Source of the DNA: Halapricum sp. CBA1109
GTDB taxonomy: Archaea > Halobacteriota > Halobacteria > Halobacteriales > Haloarculaceae
Reading direction: 5' to 3'
DNA length: 44,854 nucleotides
NCBI RefSeq assembly: GCF_009741825.1
Contig: NZ_WPCA01000007.1
Location: 1-44,854 of the forward strand
The notes beneath the pieces are model-generated. The model was not told the DNA's origin. It searched no databases and worked only from the letters and a program-made list of their open reading frames with translations. A program made the position numbers and the translations under genes. This document shows, in pieces, positions 19,838-42,260 of this stretch (positions within the stretch are counted from its first letter, which is position 1; each line of letters opens with the position of its first letter).

Positions 19838-22247
19838 GACTGAACCGTCAGTTTCTGCTCGTCGATCCCTTCGACGACGATCTCCGTGTCGGCGTCGGTC
19901 CCGTACTCCAGCGTGGCCGTCTCGCCGCTACCCACCGTCGGCGACCACTTGATGTAGTACTCCTCGTCCATATCCAGCACCGTCGCGTCCGTGACCTCAC
20001 CGGGGTCCTCGGCGACGATGGCCGTGATCTCAGCGTCGGCGTTGGTGTCGGTGTTGTTCTCGACCGAGAGGGTCGCCGTCTCCGACTCGACGGTTCGTTC
20101 GACGAGGACGTTGTTCATAATCCGGGCTATCGAGTCGTCGATATCCAAGGCCGGGCGACCGGTCACCTCCGCGAGTTTCTCGGCCATCTCCGGGAGGATG
20201 GTCGCCAGTTTGTCCTGTTTCTCCCGGCGCTGTTGCATCGAGCGGCGCTTGTTGAGGTAGCTCTTGAGGTCCCGGGCGGCCTCCCGGATGGCGAGTTCGA
20301 TCTCGCTCTCTATCTCGGGAATGTTGGCCACGGCGTCTTTGGACTCGCTGGTGAACGGCACGTTCGTCGAGGCGACGTGGACCATGATCACCGCCGGGCC
20401 GTTGGGGATACCGCTGCCGCCCGGTTGGTCCAGCCCGTAGTTGCGCCAGTTGATGTTCTTGATCACGTCCGTCGTCGCACACGCCCCGCGCTGGTAGACA
20501 AGGGCACGCGGTTGGCAAACCGCATCACGTCGACCGCGCCGCCGTCTTCGAGGTCGCCGCCGTAGGCGATGCCCGCCTCGACGATGAACGGGTCGCCGCC
20601 GTGGACCGCCGCGTCGCGGGTCGCCGCCGCGAAGAAGTCCGCGTCGAACTCCTTTTTCAGGCCCGACAGCACCAGGTCCTCGGTGATGGGTGCCAGACAC
20701 CCCGTCGGCGGCGCGATGATGTCCGTCGCCCGCATCGCCTCCAGCAACTCCGAGGCGGCGTCGCGGTCGGCCGCGATGTCCGAGACGTTCGGCACGTCGT
20801 CCGGGACGGTCACCATCGCCGACCACAGCGCCTCGACGACGTTCTCGCGGGCAGTCTCACCGAAGGTCACGTCGTCGTACTCCTCGGTGTTGTCGGCGGC
20901 CCGGTCGACCACGTCCTGCAGGTCGGCGTGCGTGTAGCGGTGGCGGCGGTCCTCCGCCCGGGCGAACGCCGACGCCAAGCGGCCGGCGACCCCCTCGACG
21001 GTTGCGTCGTCTTTCCGCGTCGAGGTGGCCGCATCGACGAGGCCGTACAGGTCCGCCGAGAGCCGGTCGCGGACCGCCTCGTCGTCCTCGCCGCCCAGCA
21101 ACGCGGTCCAGCCCGCGTCGAGGGCCTTCTCGCGGACGGTCGACCCGAACGTCGTCCCGAACTCCGACTCGACGTCGTCGGCCGCCGCCGCGACGATGTC
21201 CCGGAGTTCGCTGTGGGCCACGCGGTCTCCGTCGGCGACGACCTCGGCCACCGCCGACGAGAAGGCCTTTGTCGCCTCCTTGCCCTTGTTGGCGACGGCC
21301 GCCCTGACCGCGGCCTCGACGTCGACGTCCTCGTGGACCTGCGGCGGCCGCCACGCCATCTCGCGGCCGAAATAGCGGTCGCGGAAACTGTCGAGGACGC
21401 CGTCGGCTGTCTTCTGTCCGACCCGAGTGAACTCCTCCTGGAGAAAGCCCGACACCGAGTACGAATCGGTCGCGTCGAGCATCTTCAACAGCGTCCCGAG
21501 TTCGACACCGTGGGGGTGGGGTCGAATCTCCTCGGTCTCGGCGGGGAGTTGGGCGTCATCGGCGCGTTCGAACTTCAGCGGTTCGTCCAGACTGGGTTCG
21601 ACGAACTCGATGCGGGCGTGGGGGTTGACGACCGCCGTCTGGGAGATGTACTCGTGGAGGCTCTTGCGGGCCCGCATGTTCGCCTCCATCTCTATCTCGA
21701 TGCGGGTGCCGTGGGGACGGTCCCACGTGGTCGTCTCGTCGACGCTTATCTCCGGTTCGTTCGTGTCGGTGTCGATGATCAACTCGAAGTACTGGGCGTC
21801 CTCCCGACCGCGGGCCCGCGAGGTGATCTTCGCGGGCTTGCCGCTGGTGAGTTGGGAGTACAGCACCGCCGCGGAGATTCCGATCCCCTGCTGACCGCGC
21901 GACTGCTCCCGCTTGTGAAAACGAGATCCATACAGTAATTTTCCAAATACTTTCGGGATCTGTTCTTTGGTAATACCGGGACCGTTGTCCTCTATAACGA
22001 GTCGGTAGTAGTCTCCTTTATCCGATATTTCGACGAATATATCAGGAAGTATATCAGCCTCCTCGCAGGCGTCTAAGGAGTTGTCGACTCCCTCTTTGAC
22101 CGCCGTCACGAGCGCCCGGGCCTCCGAGTCGAACCCGAGCATATGCTTGTTCTTCTCGAAGAACTCGGCGATGGAGATCTGTCGCTGGCTCTCGGCCAGT
22201 TCCTCGGCGATCCCCTGGTCGCCGAGCGTCGACTGCATCGGTGTCAT
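19834..22247 (-). CDS. top6B: DNA topoisomerase VI subunit B (apparent frameshift)
   Basis: The ATPase subunit of topoisomerase VI, about 804 residues when read across one missing base. The N-terminal GHKL ATPase domain is clear: [27 protein letters not shown], and the lid [11 protein letters not shown] with [11 protein letters not shown] long helix-two-turn-helix/insert and the transducer domain follow. Around 20498-20506 the frame changes: ...MRFANRVPL continues as [22 protein letters not shown] only if one C is added to a CCCTTGTC run. Without it the protein ends at 20463 with an unrelated Arg-rich tail. The C-terminal part finishes at the TGA at 19834, overlapping top6A. A TATA-like CTTTACG (minus, 22271-22277) is 24-30 bases upstream of the ATG. 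Confidence 0.93.
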
Positions 22248-35615: not shown

Positions 35616-36665
35616 ATGAGTACCGTCTCTGACGTAGCACAGCGTTTCAGGAATAGCGACCTCCAGTCTAAACTCTCGGAGAACCAGGCGATATTCATGG
35701 TTCTCCCGGGGCTGTTCATGTGGTCGGCGTTCATGCTCATCCCGATGGGATACGTGTTCTTGTTGTCGATGACGAACGCCCAGCCCAGCAACCTGTTCAG
35801 TGGAGGGAACCGAATACTCGGGCTCGTCCCGATAGGGGAAGCGGAGTTCGTATACTTCACGAACTACTTCGAGTTGCTGTTCAGTCAAGAGGCGCTCAAC
35901 GGAGGAGTGTTCGACCTCCTGATGAGCAATCCGATAGCACTGTTCAACGGCACGTTCTGGAACTCGTTTTTGGTGACGTGGCTGTTCGTCATCCTGAGCG
36001 TCGCCATGAAGGTGGCTATCGGCATCGGTATCTCGCTCGTGATGACCGGGAACCGCGTCCGCGGGAAGCGGATGATGCGCGGGATCATCATCATGCCGAT
36101 GGGGATTCCGCCCATCTTCGCGATCACCGTCTGGCGGTCGGTGTTCAGCCCGGCCCGGTTCGGGCTCGCGAATCAGTTGCTGTCGGCGCTGGGGCTCGGG
36201 ACGGTCTCGTGGCTCAACCAGCGGTGGCCGGCCTTCTTCGGGTATCTCGTCACCGAGATGTGGCTGGCGTACCCCTTCATGGTGTTGATTACGGTCAGTG
36301 CACTCCAGAACGTCAACGGTGACCTCCTAGACGCCGCGGAGGTCGACGGAGCCGGGTTCTTCTCCCGGCTTCGGCACGTCATCCTGCCGGCGATCAAGCG
36401 GCCCGTGATGTTCGGGACCATCCTGACGGCGGCGGCGTCCTTCCAGCAGTTCCTCATCCCGTGGGTGTTCAACGAGGGCGGACCGAACAACTCCGCCGGT
36501 GACGGTGTCAACGAGATTCTGATGGTGTACGCCTACAAGGAGGCGTTCCGTGAGAACCTCTACGGCGTCGGTGGGGCGATCAGTCTGACCGCCGTGTTCT
36601 TCATGGGCATATTCATGTTCATCGCGGTCAAGAAAGGCAAACTCGCAGAGGAGGCTAACGAATGA
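35616..36665 (+). CDS. malF: Sugar ABC transporter permease (MalF type)
   Basis: A 349-residue membrane subunit with about six helices (AIFMVLPGLFMWSAFMLIP; FLVTWLFVILSVAMKVAIG; GIIIMPMGIPPIFAITVW; YPFMVLITVSAL; ISLTAVFFMGIFMFIAV). The EAA loop for docking the ATPase is at DLLDAAEVDGAGFFSRLRHVILP. The ATG at 35616 is chosen over a TTG 18 bases upstream; AT-rich TAACTAACACCGATTAATTG precedes it, which could be an internal promoter. It ends in a 4-base overlap with malG. Part of the malto-oligosaccharide importer. Confidence 0.92.
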   Translation: MSTVSDVAQRFRNSDLQSKLSENQAIFMVLPGLFMWSAFMLIPMGYVFLLSMTNAQPSNLFSGGNRILGLVPIGEAEFVYFTNYFELLFSQEALNGGVFDLLMSNPIALFNGTFWNSFLVTWLFVILSVAMKVAIGIGISLVMTGNRVRGKRMMRGIIIMPMGIPPIFAITVWRSVFSPARFGLANQLLSALGLGTVSWLNQRWPAFFGYLVTEMWLAYPFMVLITVSALQNVNGDLLDAAEVDGAGFFSRLRHVILPAIKRPVMFGTILTAAASFQQFLIPWVFNEGGPNNSAGDGVNEILMVYAYKEAFRENLYGVGGAISLTAVFFMGIFMFIAVKKGKLAEEANE

Positions 36666-37747
36666 GTATCGCAAGCGGCATCGTAAAGAGCGTGTACCAA
36701 GACATCAGGAACGGGGTCACCGCGCCGGTGCGGTTGGCCAAAGAGATACGGTACACGATAAACGGGCTCCAAGAGGGGAAGATTCCGCCCAAATGGGTCG
36801 CGTGGACGCTCATCTCGACGGCCGGCGCGGCAGCGTTGGTCATCGCGCTGATGTTCCCGATCTACTGGATCGCGACGATGGCGTTCAACCCGAACGCGTC
36901 GCTGTTCTCGACCGACGGGGCGGGCATCATCCCGACGGTGATCGCCATCGAGAACTTCGCGTGGGCGATAGGAAATATAACCGTCCCACAGACAATCGTC
37001 GTCAACGCGCCGCTGATCGGGGAGTTGTTCCAGTTCCCCGTTCCCGCTATCGGCGGTGAGATGGTCTTCAACGGCAAGGCGATTGCCGGCGGCGAGCAGT
37101 CGGACTTCCTCGGCTACTTCCAGAACAGCCTGTACGTCTCCTTCTGGACGGTCACCGTCGCGATGTCCGTCGTCATTCCGGGGGCGTACGCGATGTCCCG
37201 TCGGAGCTTCGTCGGGCGGAAGAAGATGCTGTACCTGTACATCCTCCTGACGCAGATCGGTGGCGGCCTCGGTATCGCCGTCCTGATCGCGCTGTACGCC
37301 ATCTTCTCGGGGATGGGCTGGTACAACAACAAACTCGCGCTGTCGTTTTACTACGCGGCGACGACGGTGCCGTTCAACACCTGGCTGTTGAAGACCTACA
37401 TGGACGGGATACCCACCTCCTACGAGGAGGCCGCAATCGTCGACGGTGCGCCGTCCTGGCGGATCGTCTACGAGATCATCATCCCGCTGTCGAAAGCCGG
37501 GCTCGCGACGGTGTTCATCTTCATCTTCCTCGCCGGGTGGATGGACTACATCGTCGCGGCGACGCTGCTTGAAGCCGAGAACTTCACGCTCCCGGTCGGA
37601 CTGTTCGCACTCATCGACGAGTTCGGCGTCCCGTGGGGGCGGTTCTCGGCATTCGCGCTGATGTTCGGGATGCCCATCATGCTGGTGTACTTCTTCGCAC
37701 AGCGGTACATCGAGCAGGGGCTCTCGTTCGGCGGAATGTCCGGCTAA
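36662..37747 (+). CDS. malG: Sugar ABC transporter permease (MalG type)
   Basis: A 361-residue membrane subunit with helices near AALVIALMFPIYWIATMAF, VSFWTVTVAMSVVIPGAYAM, LYILLTQIGGGLGIAVLIALYAIF and GLATVFIFIFLAGWMDYIVAA. The EAA motif is SYEEAAIVDGAPSWRIVYEIIIPL. Between the first and second helices there is a larger than usual periplasm-side loop (about residues 75-150), as in other MalG proteins. Its ATG at 36662 overlaps the malF stop by 4 bases (ATGA), so translation is coupled. It is the last gene of the operon. Confidence 0.92.
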   Translation: MSIASGIVKSVYQDIRNGVTAPVRLAKEIRYTINGLQEGKIPPKWVAWTLISTAGAAALVIALMFPIYWIATMAFNPNASLFSTDGAGIIPTVIAIENFAWAIGNITVPQTIVVNAPLIGELFQFPVPAIGGEMVFNGKAIAGGEQSDFLGYFQNSLYVSFWTVTVAMSVVIPGAYAMSRRSFVGRKKMLYLYILLTQIGGGLGIAVLIALYAIFSGMGWYNNKLALSFYYAATTVPFNTWLLKTYMDGIPTSYEEAAIVDGAPSWRIVYEIIIPLSKAGLATVFIFIFLAGWMDYIVAATLLEAENFTLPVGLFALIDEFGVPWGRFSAFALMFGMPIMLVYFFAQRYIEQGLSFGGMSG

Positions 37748-37826: not shown

Positions 37827-37856
37827 ATCCCACGCGCGCGCACGTGGGATTTAAGA
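37827..37856 (+). promoter_or_regulatory. gyrBA promoter with Z-DNA-prone inverted repeat
   Basis: The inverted repeat ATCCCACG-N8-CGTGGGAT (37827-37850) encloses an uninterrupted alternating pyrimidine/purine tract CACGCGCGCGCACGTG (37831-37846). The TATA box ATTTAAGA (37849-37856) overlaps the right arm and sits 23-30 bases before the gyrB ATG at 37879, so gyrB is leaderless. Alternating tracts next to a TATA box are known as a supercoiling-sensitive RY box at the haloarchaeal bop promoter. Confidence 0.55.
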
Positions 37857-37878
37857 CTCGGGGGAGTGAACACCGGGT

Positions 37879-39792
37879 ATGAGCAACGAGAGCGACTACG
37901 GGGCGGACTCCATACAAGCCCTCGAAGGGCTGGAGGCGGTCCGCAAGCGGCCGGCGATGTACATCGGGACGACCGGTACACGCGGGCTCCACCACCTCGT
38001 CTACGAGGTAGTCGACAACGCTATCGACGAGGCGCTGGCGGGGCACTGTGACAGCATCGACGTGACGATTCACGACGACGGGTCGGTGACGGTCACCGAC
38101 GACGGCCGCGGTATCCCCGTCGACGAACAGGAGGAGTACGAGCTCCCCGCGGTCGAAGTCGTGATGACCGTCCTCCACGCCGGCGGGAAGTTCGACAACA
38201 AGTCCTATCAGGTCTCGGGCGGCCTCCACGGCGTCGGCGTCTCCGTGGTCAACGCGCTATCGGAACGGCTGGACGTGACGGTCCGGCGCGACGGCGGCGT
38301 CTTCGAACAGTCCTACGAGGCCGGCGAGCCACAGGGCGAACTACAACGGGTCGGTGACCTCGGTCCCGGCGAGGACACCGGGACCGAGATTCGGTTCTGG
38401 CCAGACACCGGCATCTTCGAGACGACGGACTTCGAGTTCTCGACGCTCGAGGGACGGCTCCGGGAGTTGGCGTTCCTGAACTCCGGGGTCGAAATCATCA
38501 TCGAGGACGAACGCGACGACGCCGACCAGCGGTTCTACTACGAGGGCGGGATCAAGGAGTTCGTCGAGTACCTCAACGAGACGAAAGAACCACTCCACCG
38601 CGACGTGGTGTACTTCGAGGACGCCGAGGAGGACATCCACGTCGAAGTGGCGATGCAGGCGACGGACGAACTACAGGGGTCGATCCACGCCTTCGCCAAC
38701 AACATCAACACCCGCGAGGTGGGACACACCTCACGGGGATTCAAGACGGCGCTGACGCGCATCGTCAACGACTACGCGACCGACAACAGCCTCCTGAAAG
38801 ACTTAGACGACACGCTGAAAGGCGAGGACATCCGGGAGGGGCTGACGGCCGTCATCTCGGTCAAACACCCCGACCCGCAGTTCGAGGGCCAGACGAAGAC
38901 GAAACTCGGCAACAGCGAGGTCCGAGGCATCGTCGAGTCGGCCGTCCACGAGCATCTGGGGACGTACTTCGAGGAACACCCCGATACGGCCGAGGCCATC
39001 GTCGCCAAGGCCGTCGAGGCCGCAAAGGCCCGGAAGGCAGCCAAGAAGGCCGAGGAGTTGACCCGCCGCAAGAGCGCTCTGGAGTCGACAGCACTACCGG
39101 GAAAACTGGCCGACTGCCAGACCAAAGACCCCGACAGGGCCGAGCTGTTCATCGCGGAGGGGGACAGCGCCGGCGGGAGCGCAAAGCAGGCCCGGAATCC
39201 GGACTTTCAGGCAGTGTTACCCATCCGCGGGAAGATACTCAACGTCGAGAAACACCGCCTCGACCGCATCCTCGAGAACGACCAGATCAGGAACATCATC
39301 ACGGCGCTGGGGACGGGCGTCGGCGACGAGTTCGACGTCGACGACCTCCGGTACGGGAAGGTGATATTCGCCACCGACGCCGACGTCGACGGCGCACACA
39401 TCAGGACGCTGCTGCTAACCTTCTTCTATCGACATATGCGGCCGCTGCTTGAGGGCGGCCACATCTACGCCGCGCGGCCGCCGCTGTACCGGATTCGCTA
39501 CAACGGCAACACCTACGACGCGATGACCGACGCCGAACGCGACGAGATAGTCGCCGAGAAGTGCAACGGCAACCCGAGTCAGGTCCAGCGGTTCAAGGGC
39601 CTCGGTGAGATGAACCCCCAGCAGCTATGGGACACGACGATGGACCCGGAGAACCGGTTTCTCAAACAGATCACCATCGAAGACGCCGCCGCGGCCGACA
39701 AGATGTTCTCGGTGTTGATGGGTGACGCCGTCGAACCGCGCAAGGAGTTCATCAAGGAGAACAGCCCCGAAGCGGAGTGGGTGGACATATGA
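37879..39792 (+). CDS. gyrB: DNA gyrase subunit B
   Basis: The 637-residue ATPase and Toprim subunit of bacterial-type DNA gyrase. The N-terminal GHKL ATPase has [22 protein letters not shown] and [15 protein letters not shown]. The Toprim domain has [16 protein letters not shown] and [12 protein letters not shown], and the C-terminus the [11 protein letters not shown] segment. Complete and in frame. Its TGA overlaps the gyrA ATG by 4 bases. Gyrase introduces negative supercoils and is the target of novobiocin. It is read away from top6BA, 15.6 kb to its left. Confidence 0.97.
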
Positions 39793-42260
39793 GTTCGGAC
39801 GTACCCGACCCGGGGCCCGACGAGGATGTGGCCGCACGCGTCGAACGGGTCCGCATCGAGGACGAGATGGAGCAGAGCTACATCGACTACGCGATGAGCG
39901 TCATCGCGGGCCGGGCGCTGCCGGACGTCCGCGACGGCCTCAAACCCGTCCACCGGCGTATCCTCTACGCGATGCACGAGATGGGCGTCTCCTCGGGGTC
40001 GTCCCACCGGAAGTCCTCCTCCATCGTCGGGGAGACGATGGGGGATTACCACCCCCACGGCGACAGCGCCATCTACGACACCCTCGTCGGGATGGCACAA
40101 GAGTTCTCGATGCGGTACCCCCTCGTCGACGGACAGGGGAACTTCGGATCGATGGACGGCGACCCGGCGGCGGCGATGCGATACACGGAGGCCCGAATGA
40201 GCCCCATCGCCGAGGAGTTGCTGGCCGACATCGGGAAGGACACGGTCGACTTCTCGCCGAACTACGACGACCGCTTGACGGAACCGGAGGTCCTCCCATC
40301 GTCGTTCCCGAACCTGCTGGTCAACGGCTCGACCGGTATCGCCGTCGGGATGTCGACGAAGATTCCGCCGCACAACTTACAGGAGGTCATCGACGCGACG
40401 GTCCACCTCATCGACAACCCCGACGCCGAGGTGGCCGACCTGATGGAGTACATCAAGGGACCGGACTTCCCGACGGGCGCGAACGTCGTCGGCAAGGACG
40501 CTATCTACTCGGCCTACGCCACCGGCCGGGGTCGCCTGACCGTCCGCGCGGAGTTCGAAGTCGAGGAACGCGAGAGCGGCGGCGACCGCATCGTCGTCAC
40601 CGAACTCCCCTATCAGGAGAACAAGGCACGCGTCGTCGAGCGAATCGCCGACGACGTCAACGAGGGGATCATCGAGGGCGTCGCGGACCTCCGCGACGAG
40701 TCAGACCGCAACGGCGTCCGCGTCGTCGTCGAGTGCAAACGCGGCGCGAACGTCGAGGTGGTCAAAAACCAACTGCTCGAACACCACCTCGAATCGACCT
40801 TCGGGATGATCAACCTCGCGCTGGTCGACGGCCAGCCACAGGTGCTGACGCTGAAAGAGACCTTGGCGGAGTACATCGACCACCGAAAGGAGGTCGTCCG
40901 GCGGCGCTCTGAGTACGACCTCGCGGAGGCCGAGGACCGCGCACACATCCTCGAAGGTCGGCTGAAAGCGCTGGAGAACGCCGAGGACGTGGTGGAGTTG
41001 ATCCGCGACGCCGAGGACCGCGACGGCGCGAAAGAGGCACTACGGGAGGCCTACGGCTTCTCGGTCGATCAGGCCGACCACATCGTCCGGATGCAACTGG
41101 GGTCGCTGACCTCGATGGAGGCCGCCGAGATAGAGTCCGAGTACGAGTCGGTTCAGGCCGAGATAGAGCGATTAGAGACCATCCTCGACAGCGAGTCGGA
41201 GTTGCTCTCGGTCATCAAAGACGAACTCCGGGACATCGCCGAGACCTACGGCGACGACCGCAAGACCTCCATCCTCGAGGACGAGGGGACGGTCACCCGC
41301 GAGGACCTCATCCCCGAGGAGGACGTGGTCGTGGCGATGACCGCCGACGACTACATCAAGCGGATGCCGGCCGCACAGTTCGACCCCCAGCGACGGGGCG
41401 GCAAGGGGATCATCGGCGGCGACCCCAAAGACGAGGACCGGATCACGACGGTCTTCCGGGCCAACACCCACGACTACCTCCTGTGTTTCACCAACCGGGG
41501 GCAGGTCTACCGGCTCAAGACCTACGAGATACCGGAGATGTCCCGCACCGCCCGCGGGAAGTCGGCGGTGAACCTGCTCGATCTGGACGACGGCGAGCAA
41601 CTGACGGCCGTCGTCCCGACGGACGACCTCGACGCCGAGGAGTGTATCACGATGGTCACCCGGCACGGCTACGTCAAGCGGACGTGTGCCGCCGAGTTCG
41701 AGAACATCCTCTCGACGGGGATCATCGCCGCGAAACTCGAAGACAACGACGAACTCGTCGACGTCGAGGTGACCGACGGGAGTATGGACCTCGTCGTCGC
41801 CACCGAGGGCGGGATGACCATCCGCTTCGACGAGGACGAGGTCCGACAGATGGGCCGGAGTGCGCGCGGCGTCCGCGGCATCGACCTACAGGACGGCGAC
41901 GCGGTCGCGGGACTGGTGGCGACCAGCGACGACGACGAGCGGTCGCTGTTGACCGTCACCGCCAACGGCTACGGCAAGCGGACGCCCCTCTCGGAGTATC
42001 GCCGCCAGTCCCGCTACGGCAAGGGACTGATCGACATCAAGACCGACGAGCGCAACGGCCCAGTCAGGTCCGTCAAGGCCGTCTCCGAGGACGACCACAT
42101 CGTCGTGATGAGCGACCGGGGCCAGATTATGCGCTGTCCGGTCGCGGATATCTCGACGGTCGGCCGCAACACCAAGGGCGTCGTCATCATGACAGTCGAG
42201 GAGGGCGACAGCGTCGCCAGCGTGGACGTGCTTCCCTCGGACAGCGGTACCGCGGACTGA
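39789..42260 (+). CDS. gyrA: DNA gyrase subunit A
   Basis: The 823-residue DNA breakage-reunion subunit of gyrase. Catalytic Tyr132 is in [10 protein letters not shown]; the quinolone-resistance region reads [17 protein letters not shown]. The C-terminal wrapping domain has six blade-type repeats and a GyrA box [14 protein letters not shown], which marks gyrase rather than topoisomerase IV. The ATG at 39789 overlaps gyrB by 4 bases; an ATG four codons upstream is possible but would lie inside gyrB. The last 18 codons are echoed by a second copy of the tail at about 42333-42383. Confidence 0.97.

Follow-up and report, generated by a model that had tools for sequence, protein, structure and literature searches.

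An alternating pyrimidine-purine element at the gyrB promoter of haloarchaea and its possible link to the supercoiling control of gyrase

That bacterial gyrase is kept in balance by feedback is textbook knowledge. In haloarchaea, a promoter element that responds to supercoiling has reportedly been described at bop by Yang et al. in 1996, the RY box of this promoter being 11 bp long, centred 23 bp before the start site, located at or after the TATA box and stimulated by supercoiling. Z-DNA is also said to have been addressed in these organisms; going by the titles, Kim et al. in 1996 reported that, in plasmids of E. coli and H. halobium, the Z-DNA of short d(CG)n gains stability from repeat length and supercoiling but none from salinity, and Kim and DasSarma in the same year, 1996, reportedly surveyed the natural Z-DNA-forming sequences of the Halobacterium chromosome.

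Archaea acquired gyrase by transfer, and control of supercoiling by gyrase in the bacterial manner was described in 2021 as not established there, the evidence from halophiles being indirect (PMC8643681). The gyrase inhibitor novobiocin raises the transcripts of gyrase and of type I topoisomerase in Hbt. salinarum R1 (Tarasov et al. 2011, PMC3184054), and strong induction of a gyrB gene by novobiocin has been reported for Haloferax/halophiles (Holmes and Dyall-Smith 1991, cited in PMC9348778 and PMC8643681). Higher expression under novobiocin has been reported for the genes of topoisomerases I and VI as well (PMC8643681). For bop, the sign of the response is disputed: novobiocin is said to inhibit bop in NRC-1, yet a 5-fold rise has been given for R1 (PMC3184054), and two other papers report that bop is induced by novobiocin. 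Among the literature matches listed, no title or abstract opening mentions a conserved alternating element at haloarchaeal gyrB, an earlier mention in a single species being possible. Here, we describe such an element and weigh the explanations that can be given for it.

The gyrB locus of the window

In the window, the whole stretch of 44,854 bases that was analysed, the sequence CACGCGCGCGCACGTG alternates between pyrimidine and purine without a break over 16 nt, and the C and G that flank it break the alternation on either side. The tract lies in the 131-nt gap between the end of an upstream permease gene and the ATG of gyrB and ends 3 nt before the TATA-like box TTTAAG (Table 1); an earlier note on this DNA had placed it at the gyrB TATA box, and the tract is real. 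It is the sole alternating run of at least 14 nt in the window, and the exact 16-mer was found by pattern search once only in its own assembly (2.97 Mb in 266 contigs, 79% complete). Since mononucleotide shuffles of the window yield 0.45 runs of at least 16 nt per window, the length of the tract alone is not extreme, and it is conservation in relatives that raises it far above chance. Within the tract, the conserved octamer CGCG-YR-CG takes the form CGCGCACG, which is found in 15 of 206 haloarchaeal gyrB promoters, with CA as the YR step at 37841-37842. The CGTGG at 37843-37847 would, judging by its position, occupy the place of the TFB recognition element (BRE).

The reading frame downstream matches the GyrB profile TIGR01059 with 957.7 bits against a cut-off of 882.4. 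The true start of gyrA probably lies after the gyrB stop, since the TIGR01063 match begins at residue 23 of the open reading frame. With the gyrB ATG standing 29 nt past the first T of the TATA-like box, a leaderless or near-leaderless start is plausible in the window. This distance is 29 nt in the window (37850-37879) and 35-40 nt in 198 of the 206 promoters; a short leader appears to have been shortened by about 8 nt in the window's species.

Two further observations concern topoisomerase reading frames. The window's top6B (topoisomerase VI subunit B), on the minus strand at 20218-20711, has its Pfam domain match split between two frames (20493-20711 and 20218-20502), so that the reading frame is broken, either by a real change or by an assembly error. 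At L007 and L008 of the same genus (genome G001), gyrB forms one frame of 1215 aa in which the GyrB match is split near residue 500, a split that resembles what an intein-type insertion would produce.

Table 1. Features of the gyrB promoter and its neighbouring genes in the window
Feature	Coordinates	Strand	Basis or remark
Alternating pyrimidine-purine tract, 16 nt unbroken, CACGCGCGCGCACGTG	37831-37846	+	gyrB promoter element
Octamer CGCG-YR-CG, here CGCGCACG	37837-37844	+	Column table and octamer counts
CGTGG, fitting the conserved CGNGR directly 5' of TATA	37843-37847	+	Columns -7 to -3
TATA-like box TTTAAG	37850-37855	+	Commonest form, 53/206 promoters
Inverted repeat, 8 bp, ATCCCACG (37827-37834) / CGTGGGAT (37843-37850), spacer 8 nt	37827-37850		
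gyrB, DNA gyrase subunit B, 637 aa	37879-39792	+	TIGR01059
gyrA open reading frame	39777-42260	+	TIGR01063; directly next gene after gyrB
MalG-like ABC transporter permease, upstream neighbour	36662-37747	+	Below curated cut-off; outside the element

Conservation and composition of the element

Loci of gyrB were taken from named genomes and from the genus, the family, the class and two further families, as a sample of the matching genomes chosen for spread. After promoters with identical last 80 nt had been collapsed, 217 haloarchaeal loci gave 206 distinct promoters, which were aligned on TATA; L025, with 31 nt of upstream sequence only, was left out, while L026 and L035, which have no tract, were counted as misses, and L391 is the L035 promoter again. 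The 30 nt that precede TATA contain an alternating run of at least 8 nt in 204 of the 206 promoters, of at least 10 nt in 198 and of at least 12 nt in 166, the median of the longest run being 14 nt. In 177 of the 204 promoters this longest run stops 3-6 nt short of TATA, and in the remaining 27 it ends elsewhere. In control windows further upstream of the same genes (n=618), 5.5% reach 8 nt and 1.3% reach 10 nt, and in shuffles of the same 30 nt these shares are 9.9% and 2.3%. Comparison promoters were the 76 genes with a comparable TATA box among 351 genes in 400 kb of one same-genus genome, of which four have a run of at least 8 nt and none a run of at least 10 nt.

The alternation can also be followed step by step. 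Anchored on TATA and without re-registering, it amounts to 0.91-0.99 per step in columns -15 to -7 and to 0.41-0.58 in columns -60 to -28, and in the registered columns -16 to -6, 9.55 of 10 steps alternate against 5.43 in shuffles. Compared with within-sequence shuffles, the excess of alternation reaches -26, with none beyond. The earlier note had proposed that gyrB promoters be aligned across haloarchaea and had taken a lack of conservation among relatives as evidence against its idea; the alternation is instead conserved. Haloarchaeal gyrB promoters are thus shown to carry a conserved, nearly position-fixed alternating element, composed mostly of CG steps and running into CGNGR at the BRE position.

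For the numbering of base columns, each tract was allowed to slide against TATA by up to 3 nt, and the resulting consensus approximates CGCGCGCGYRCGNGR-NN-TTTAWR. Several columns are base-specific, with CG at -13/-12 in 200 of 206 promoters, G at -6 in all 206 and G at -4 in 194. The step -9/-8 reads TG in 121 promoters, TA in 39, CA in 37, CG in 3 and something else in 6, so that TG, TA and CA interchange in 197 of 206; on a GyrB tree of 133 N-termini, 15 changes at this step are among these three and 2 lead to anything else. CG is not preferred over TG, CA and TA at every step, unlike in a tract optimised for Z-DNA, and its presence in only 3 of 206 promoters at -9/-8 argues against simple Z-DNA maximisation. 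The element is composed of a fixed CG core, a YR step nearly always containing an A-T pair, CGNGR and a looser alternating tail upstream.

Substitutions on the same tree of 133 give a ratio of transitions to transversions of 44:14 in columns -15 to -8, compared with 441:865 upstream. This core ratio depends on sliding, falling to 33:110 when the sequences are pinned to TATA alone, and the same sliding makes no excess in flanking DNA (254:480, 240:517 and 264:498). The transition excess is weaker when the core is set against the slow BRE columns (35:30, p 0.014), and slow columns are less saturated than the fast control columns, which calls for caution in reading it. The TATA-anchored counts of alternation are independent of sliding.

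Base-specific columns of this kind are to be expected if the element is an operator, with a consensus near CGCG-YR-CG-N-G read partly via the flexible YR step, for a putative haloarchaeal DNA-binding protein that activates or represses gyrB; this protein, rather than DNA shape by itself, would then sense supercoiling or growth state. Avoidance of CG at -9/-8 and the near-fixed spacing to TATA point the same way as the conserved CG at -13/-12 and the G columns, and haloarchaeal activators are known to bind just before the BRE. However, an operator sits less easily with a centre at which TG, CA and TA are interchangeable, with alternation that spreads past the fixed core as far as -26, or with a dyad symmetry that is not conserved. 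We regard the operator as a serious possibility, though short of probable, and as the chief competitor of the supercoiling sensor discussed below.

The earlier note had further described the tract as framed by an 8-bp inverted repeat able to form a cruciform. The repeat is present, its right arm overlapping TTTAAG by one base, and arms of 8-9 bp, with differing letters, occur in both the window and the congener L003. Across the 206 promoters the mean perfect arm is 5.17 bp, above the 4.18 bp of letter shuffles that keep the RY pattern, and this excess could be taken to indicate that the functional part is the repeat itself, as a cruciform or as a dimer site. Recombined halves of different species, however, give a mean arm of 5.04 bp, nearly that of the real promoters, and arms of at least 8 bp in 4.4% of cases against 11 of 206 (5.3%), so that the base composition of the columns suffices to produce the excess over the RY-pattern shuffle. 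In the 206 promoters, dyad symmetry conserved beyond column composition was not found against this control, which rules out the inverted repeat or cruciform as a conserved feature. The cruciform part of the earlier proposal therefore falls, a functional repeat being very improbable, and the simplest account of the window's 8-bp repeat is that it arises from the alternating, CG-rich nature of the tract together with chance.

Specificity to gyrB and phylogenetic range

A sequence-only model of the element was built from 45 diverse promoters and run on 59 genomes, in 57 of which gyrB is the best match; the exceptions are G045, with a higher-scoring place elsewhere, and G164, with a gyrB that lacks the element. 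The 53 lowest E-values come one per genome, each just before a gyrB start, with gyrB identified by locus coordinates in 48, by tblastn in four and by retrieving the place in one. Seed promoters match the model by construction, and the informative part of this result is that places other than gyrB seldom score alike. When the model was applied to the window and to 400 kb of a congener, the element reached 20.7 bits, against 9.3 bits for the second-best place. A strict degenerate pattern returned 60 rows from 57 family genomes, 41 of them at gyrB (40 sites) and 19 elsewhere; compared with 11 rows for the reversed control, the matches elsewhere are not far above chance, and the strict pattern gives no indication of a regulon beyond gyrB in these genomes. 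As an observation apart, CGTGTGCGAGGATTTAATA, which is like the gyrB element, stands at a non-gyrB site in four genomes of genus g2 (L272, L273, G036:C1:1469788 and G037:C65:204497).

For an operator, the lack of any comparable site that stands out at other genes is unusual unless the regulator is dedicated to gyrase. The same specificity bears on whether the tract is a core-promoter feature, consisting of a GC-rich BRE with flexible YR steps for one TFB/TBP pair, which would set promoter strength only and sense no topology. Such a role would suit a tract that abuts and overlaps the BRE position with CGNGR kept, as well as the presence of 6 TBP and 7 TFB genes in Halobacterium NRC-1 (PMC1447603), and topoisomerase genes without the tract are also reported to be induced by novobiocin. 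Yet no run of 10 nt is found in the 76 other TATA promoters of the same-genus genome, the model singles out gyrB, and the tract reaches about 10-15 nt past the BRE position; a purely core-promoter role appears unlikely.

The promoters of other topoisomerase genes, as far as they were placed, do not share the element. From 29 topA loci, 28 distinct promoters were placed, of which 13 possess a good TATA box. A run of at least 10 nt is absent from the 30 nt before the best TATA in all 28, and equally before the TATA of the six top6B promoters placed from 34 loci; on these counts, an element common to other topoisomerase genes was rejected. Some individual sites are recorded here as observations. 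At the topA loci L346 and L347, a run of 10-11 nt is found some 60-70 nt before the start, and L346 (genome G157) has CGCGCGTGCG followed after some 7 nt by CTTATA, which stands 5' of an ordinary CGAAA-type BRE and the TTTAGA box of topA; judging by sequence, something resembling the gyrB element may thus be present at this one topA. All six placed top6B promoters (L012, L022, L023, L027, L029 and L030) have a different motif, close to TTTCACTTTCAC, slightly 5' of TATA, and 46 of 206 loci have this motif, which reads GTGAAA[GC]TGAA on the gyrB strand, in the 250 nt preceding gyrB.

In halophilic archaea, the genes of topoisomerase VI and gyrase are described as contiguous and probably divergent (PMC9348778), an arrangement in which the tract might serve the upstream neighbour, as a terminator or as a divergent topoisomerase VI promoter. 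However, the position of the tract at the gyrB TATA does not change with the gene next upstream, which is a co-directional permease in the window, a divergent top6B in other loci and another ORF in L009, and the placed top6B promoters have no such run of their own. Service to the neighbour can practically be set aside.

The range of the element among lineages is broad and has limits. In families f8-f10, runs of at least 10 nt are found in 10 of 11 loci, L391 being the miss, and in L396 the run lies some 14 nt away from TATA. In the divergent families f5 and f11 (GyrB 68-70% identical), none of four gyrB loci has a run of at least 10 nt, and the tract is thus not needed for gyrB expression everywhere. 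Neither the second gyrB copies of three genomes (L397, L398 and L399; 0 of 3) nor the gyrB loci of non-haloarchaeal archaea (0 of 15) show a run of at least 10 nt within the last 90 nt upstream of the start, the longest being 9 nt in both sets, in which the starts were chosen by script and are uncertain for a few. The element appears to be a property of the main gyrB copy in crown haloarchaea.

Possible supercoiling sensing at the gyrB promoter

The leading candidate explanation for the element is the supercoiling homeostasis of gyrase. The element would act in cis as a sensor of negative supercoiling and close a negative feedback on gyrase, a proposal to which we give not quite even chances. 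Under strong negative supercoiling the tract would leave the B-form for Z-DNA, with a B-Z junction perhaps at step -9/-8, where the A-T pair lies. Since the tract adjoins the BRE position and partly covers it, a departure from the B-form would affect the binding of both TFB and TBP; the B-form BRE/TATA surface for these factors would be gone and transcription of gyrB-gyrA would fall. With gyrase inhibited or the DNA relaxed, the tract would return to the B-form and transcription would rise, which would place gyrase in a negative feedback loop on its own product. In one reading, the A-T-containing step marks the B-Z junction and keeps CGNGR in the B-form; in another, it is read by a protein.

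The B-Z transition was modelled as a rough two-state process, using low-salt dinucleotide and junction energies and a 4-kb domain. The predicted threshold lies at |sigma| of about 0.056 (median of 205 promoters), with 0.051 in the window, and it is at or below 0.06 in 154 of 205 gyrB promoters against none of the 76 other promoters; as modelled, the threshold is in the physiological range, with the reservation that the energies are those of low salt. The thresholds have a spread of 0.0084, compared with 0.0103 when the steps are dealt anew (range 0.0087-0.0118 over 60 deals), but kinship confounds this comparison and tuning of the Z thresholds is not claimed.

Expression data from other haloarchaea also bear on the sensor model. 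The earlier note had held that gyrB expression unaltered by DNA relaxation would speak against supercoiling control; published reports describe a rise of gyrase with novobiocin (PMC3184054, PMC9348778, PMC8643681), a direction that agrees with the sensor model. Since the placed topA and top6B promoters lack the tract and topoisomerases I and VI are nevertheless reported to be induced, induction does not need the tract in general, and this comparison makes the sensor, its strongest form included, slightly less probable and the protein operator slightly more so. The fixed CG at -13/-12 and G at -6, together with the avoidance of CG at -9/-8, look like base-specific reading, which also argues against the sensor. 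In the strongest form of the proposal, crown haloarchaea as a clade would control gyrase by a topological switch that needs no protein: a tract tuned to form Z-DNA and provided with a junction step would lie against the BRE/TATA of gyrB, flip at physiological superhelical density and shut off initiation. We put this forward only tentatively and consider it rather doubtful.

If this is true, gyrase would respond to its own product by way of promoter shape. The element would provide an example of a defined promoter at which selection may act on DNA shape. A short element that is conserved in most sampled haloarchaeal families and distinctive of gyrB makes the question of gyrase feedback in archaea accessible to promoter mutagenesis in a tractable organism.

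The closest known case is the bop RY box, which resembles the gyrB element in being a short alternating tract near a haloarchaeal TATA box, in a promoter whose activity changes with gyrase inhibition. In contrast to that box, the gyrB tract has a median length of 14 nt, precedes TATA and is conserved over most sampled families, and its gene is reported to go up on gyrase inhibition. The positional parallel is loose: the earlier note had assigned both tracts the same position relative to TATA, whereas the longest gyrB run ends 3-6 nt 5' of TATA in 177 of 204 promoters and the bop box lies reportedly at or after TATA. The chromosomal survey attributed to Kim and DasSarma shares with the present work an interest in Z-DNA-forming sequences of a haloarchaeal genome, its title making no link to gyrB. 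The induction of haloarchaeal gyrase by novobiocin concerns the same gene and the same response that the element would explain, and the available excerpts of the reports name no promoter element as its cause (PMC3184054, PMC9348778, PMC8643681). Bacterial gyrase promoters, such as those of E. coli gyrA and gyrB and of mycobacterial gyr, are similar in that supercoiling feeds back on gyrase with promoter DNA as the sensor, but they use other elements, and an alternating tract 5' of an archaeal BRE/TATA would represent another design (PMC4770202).
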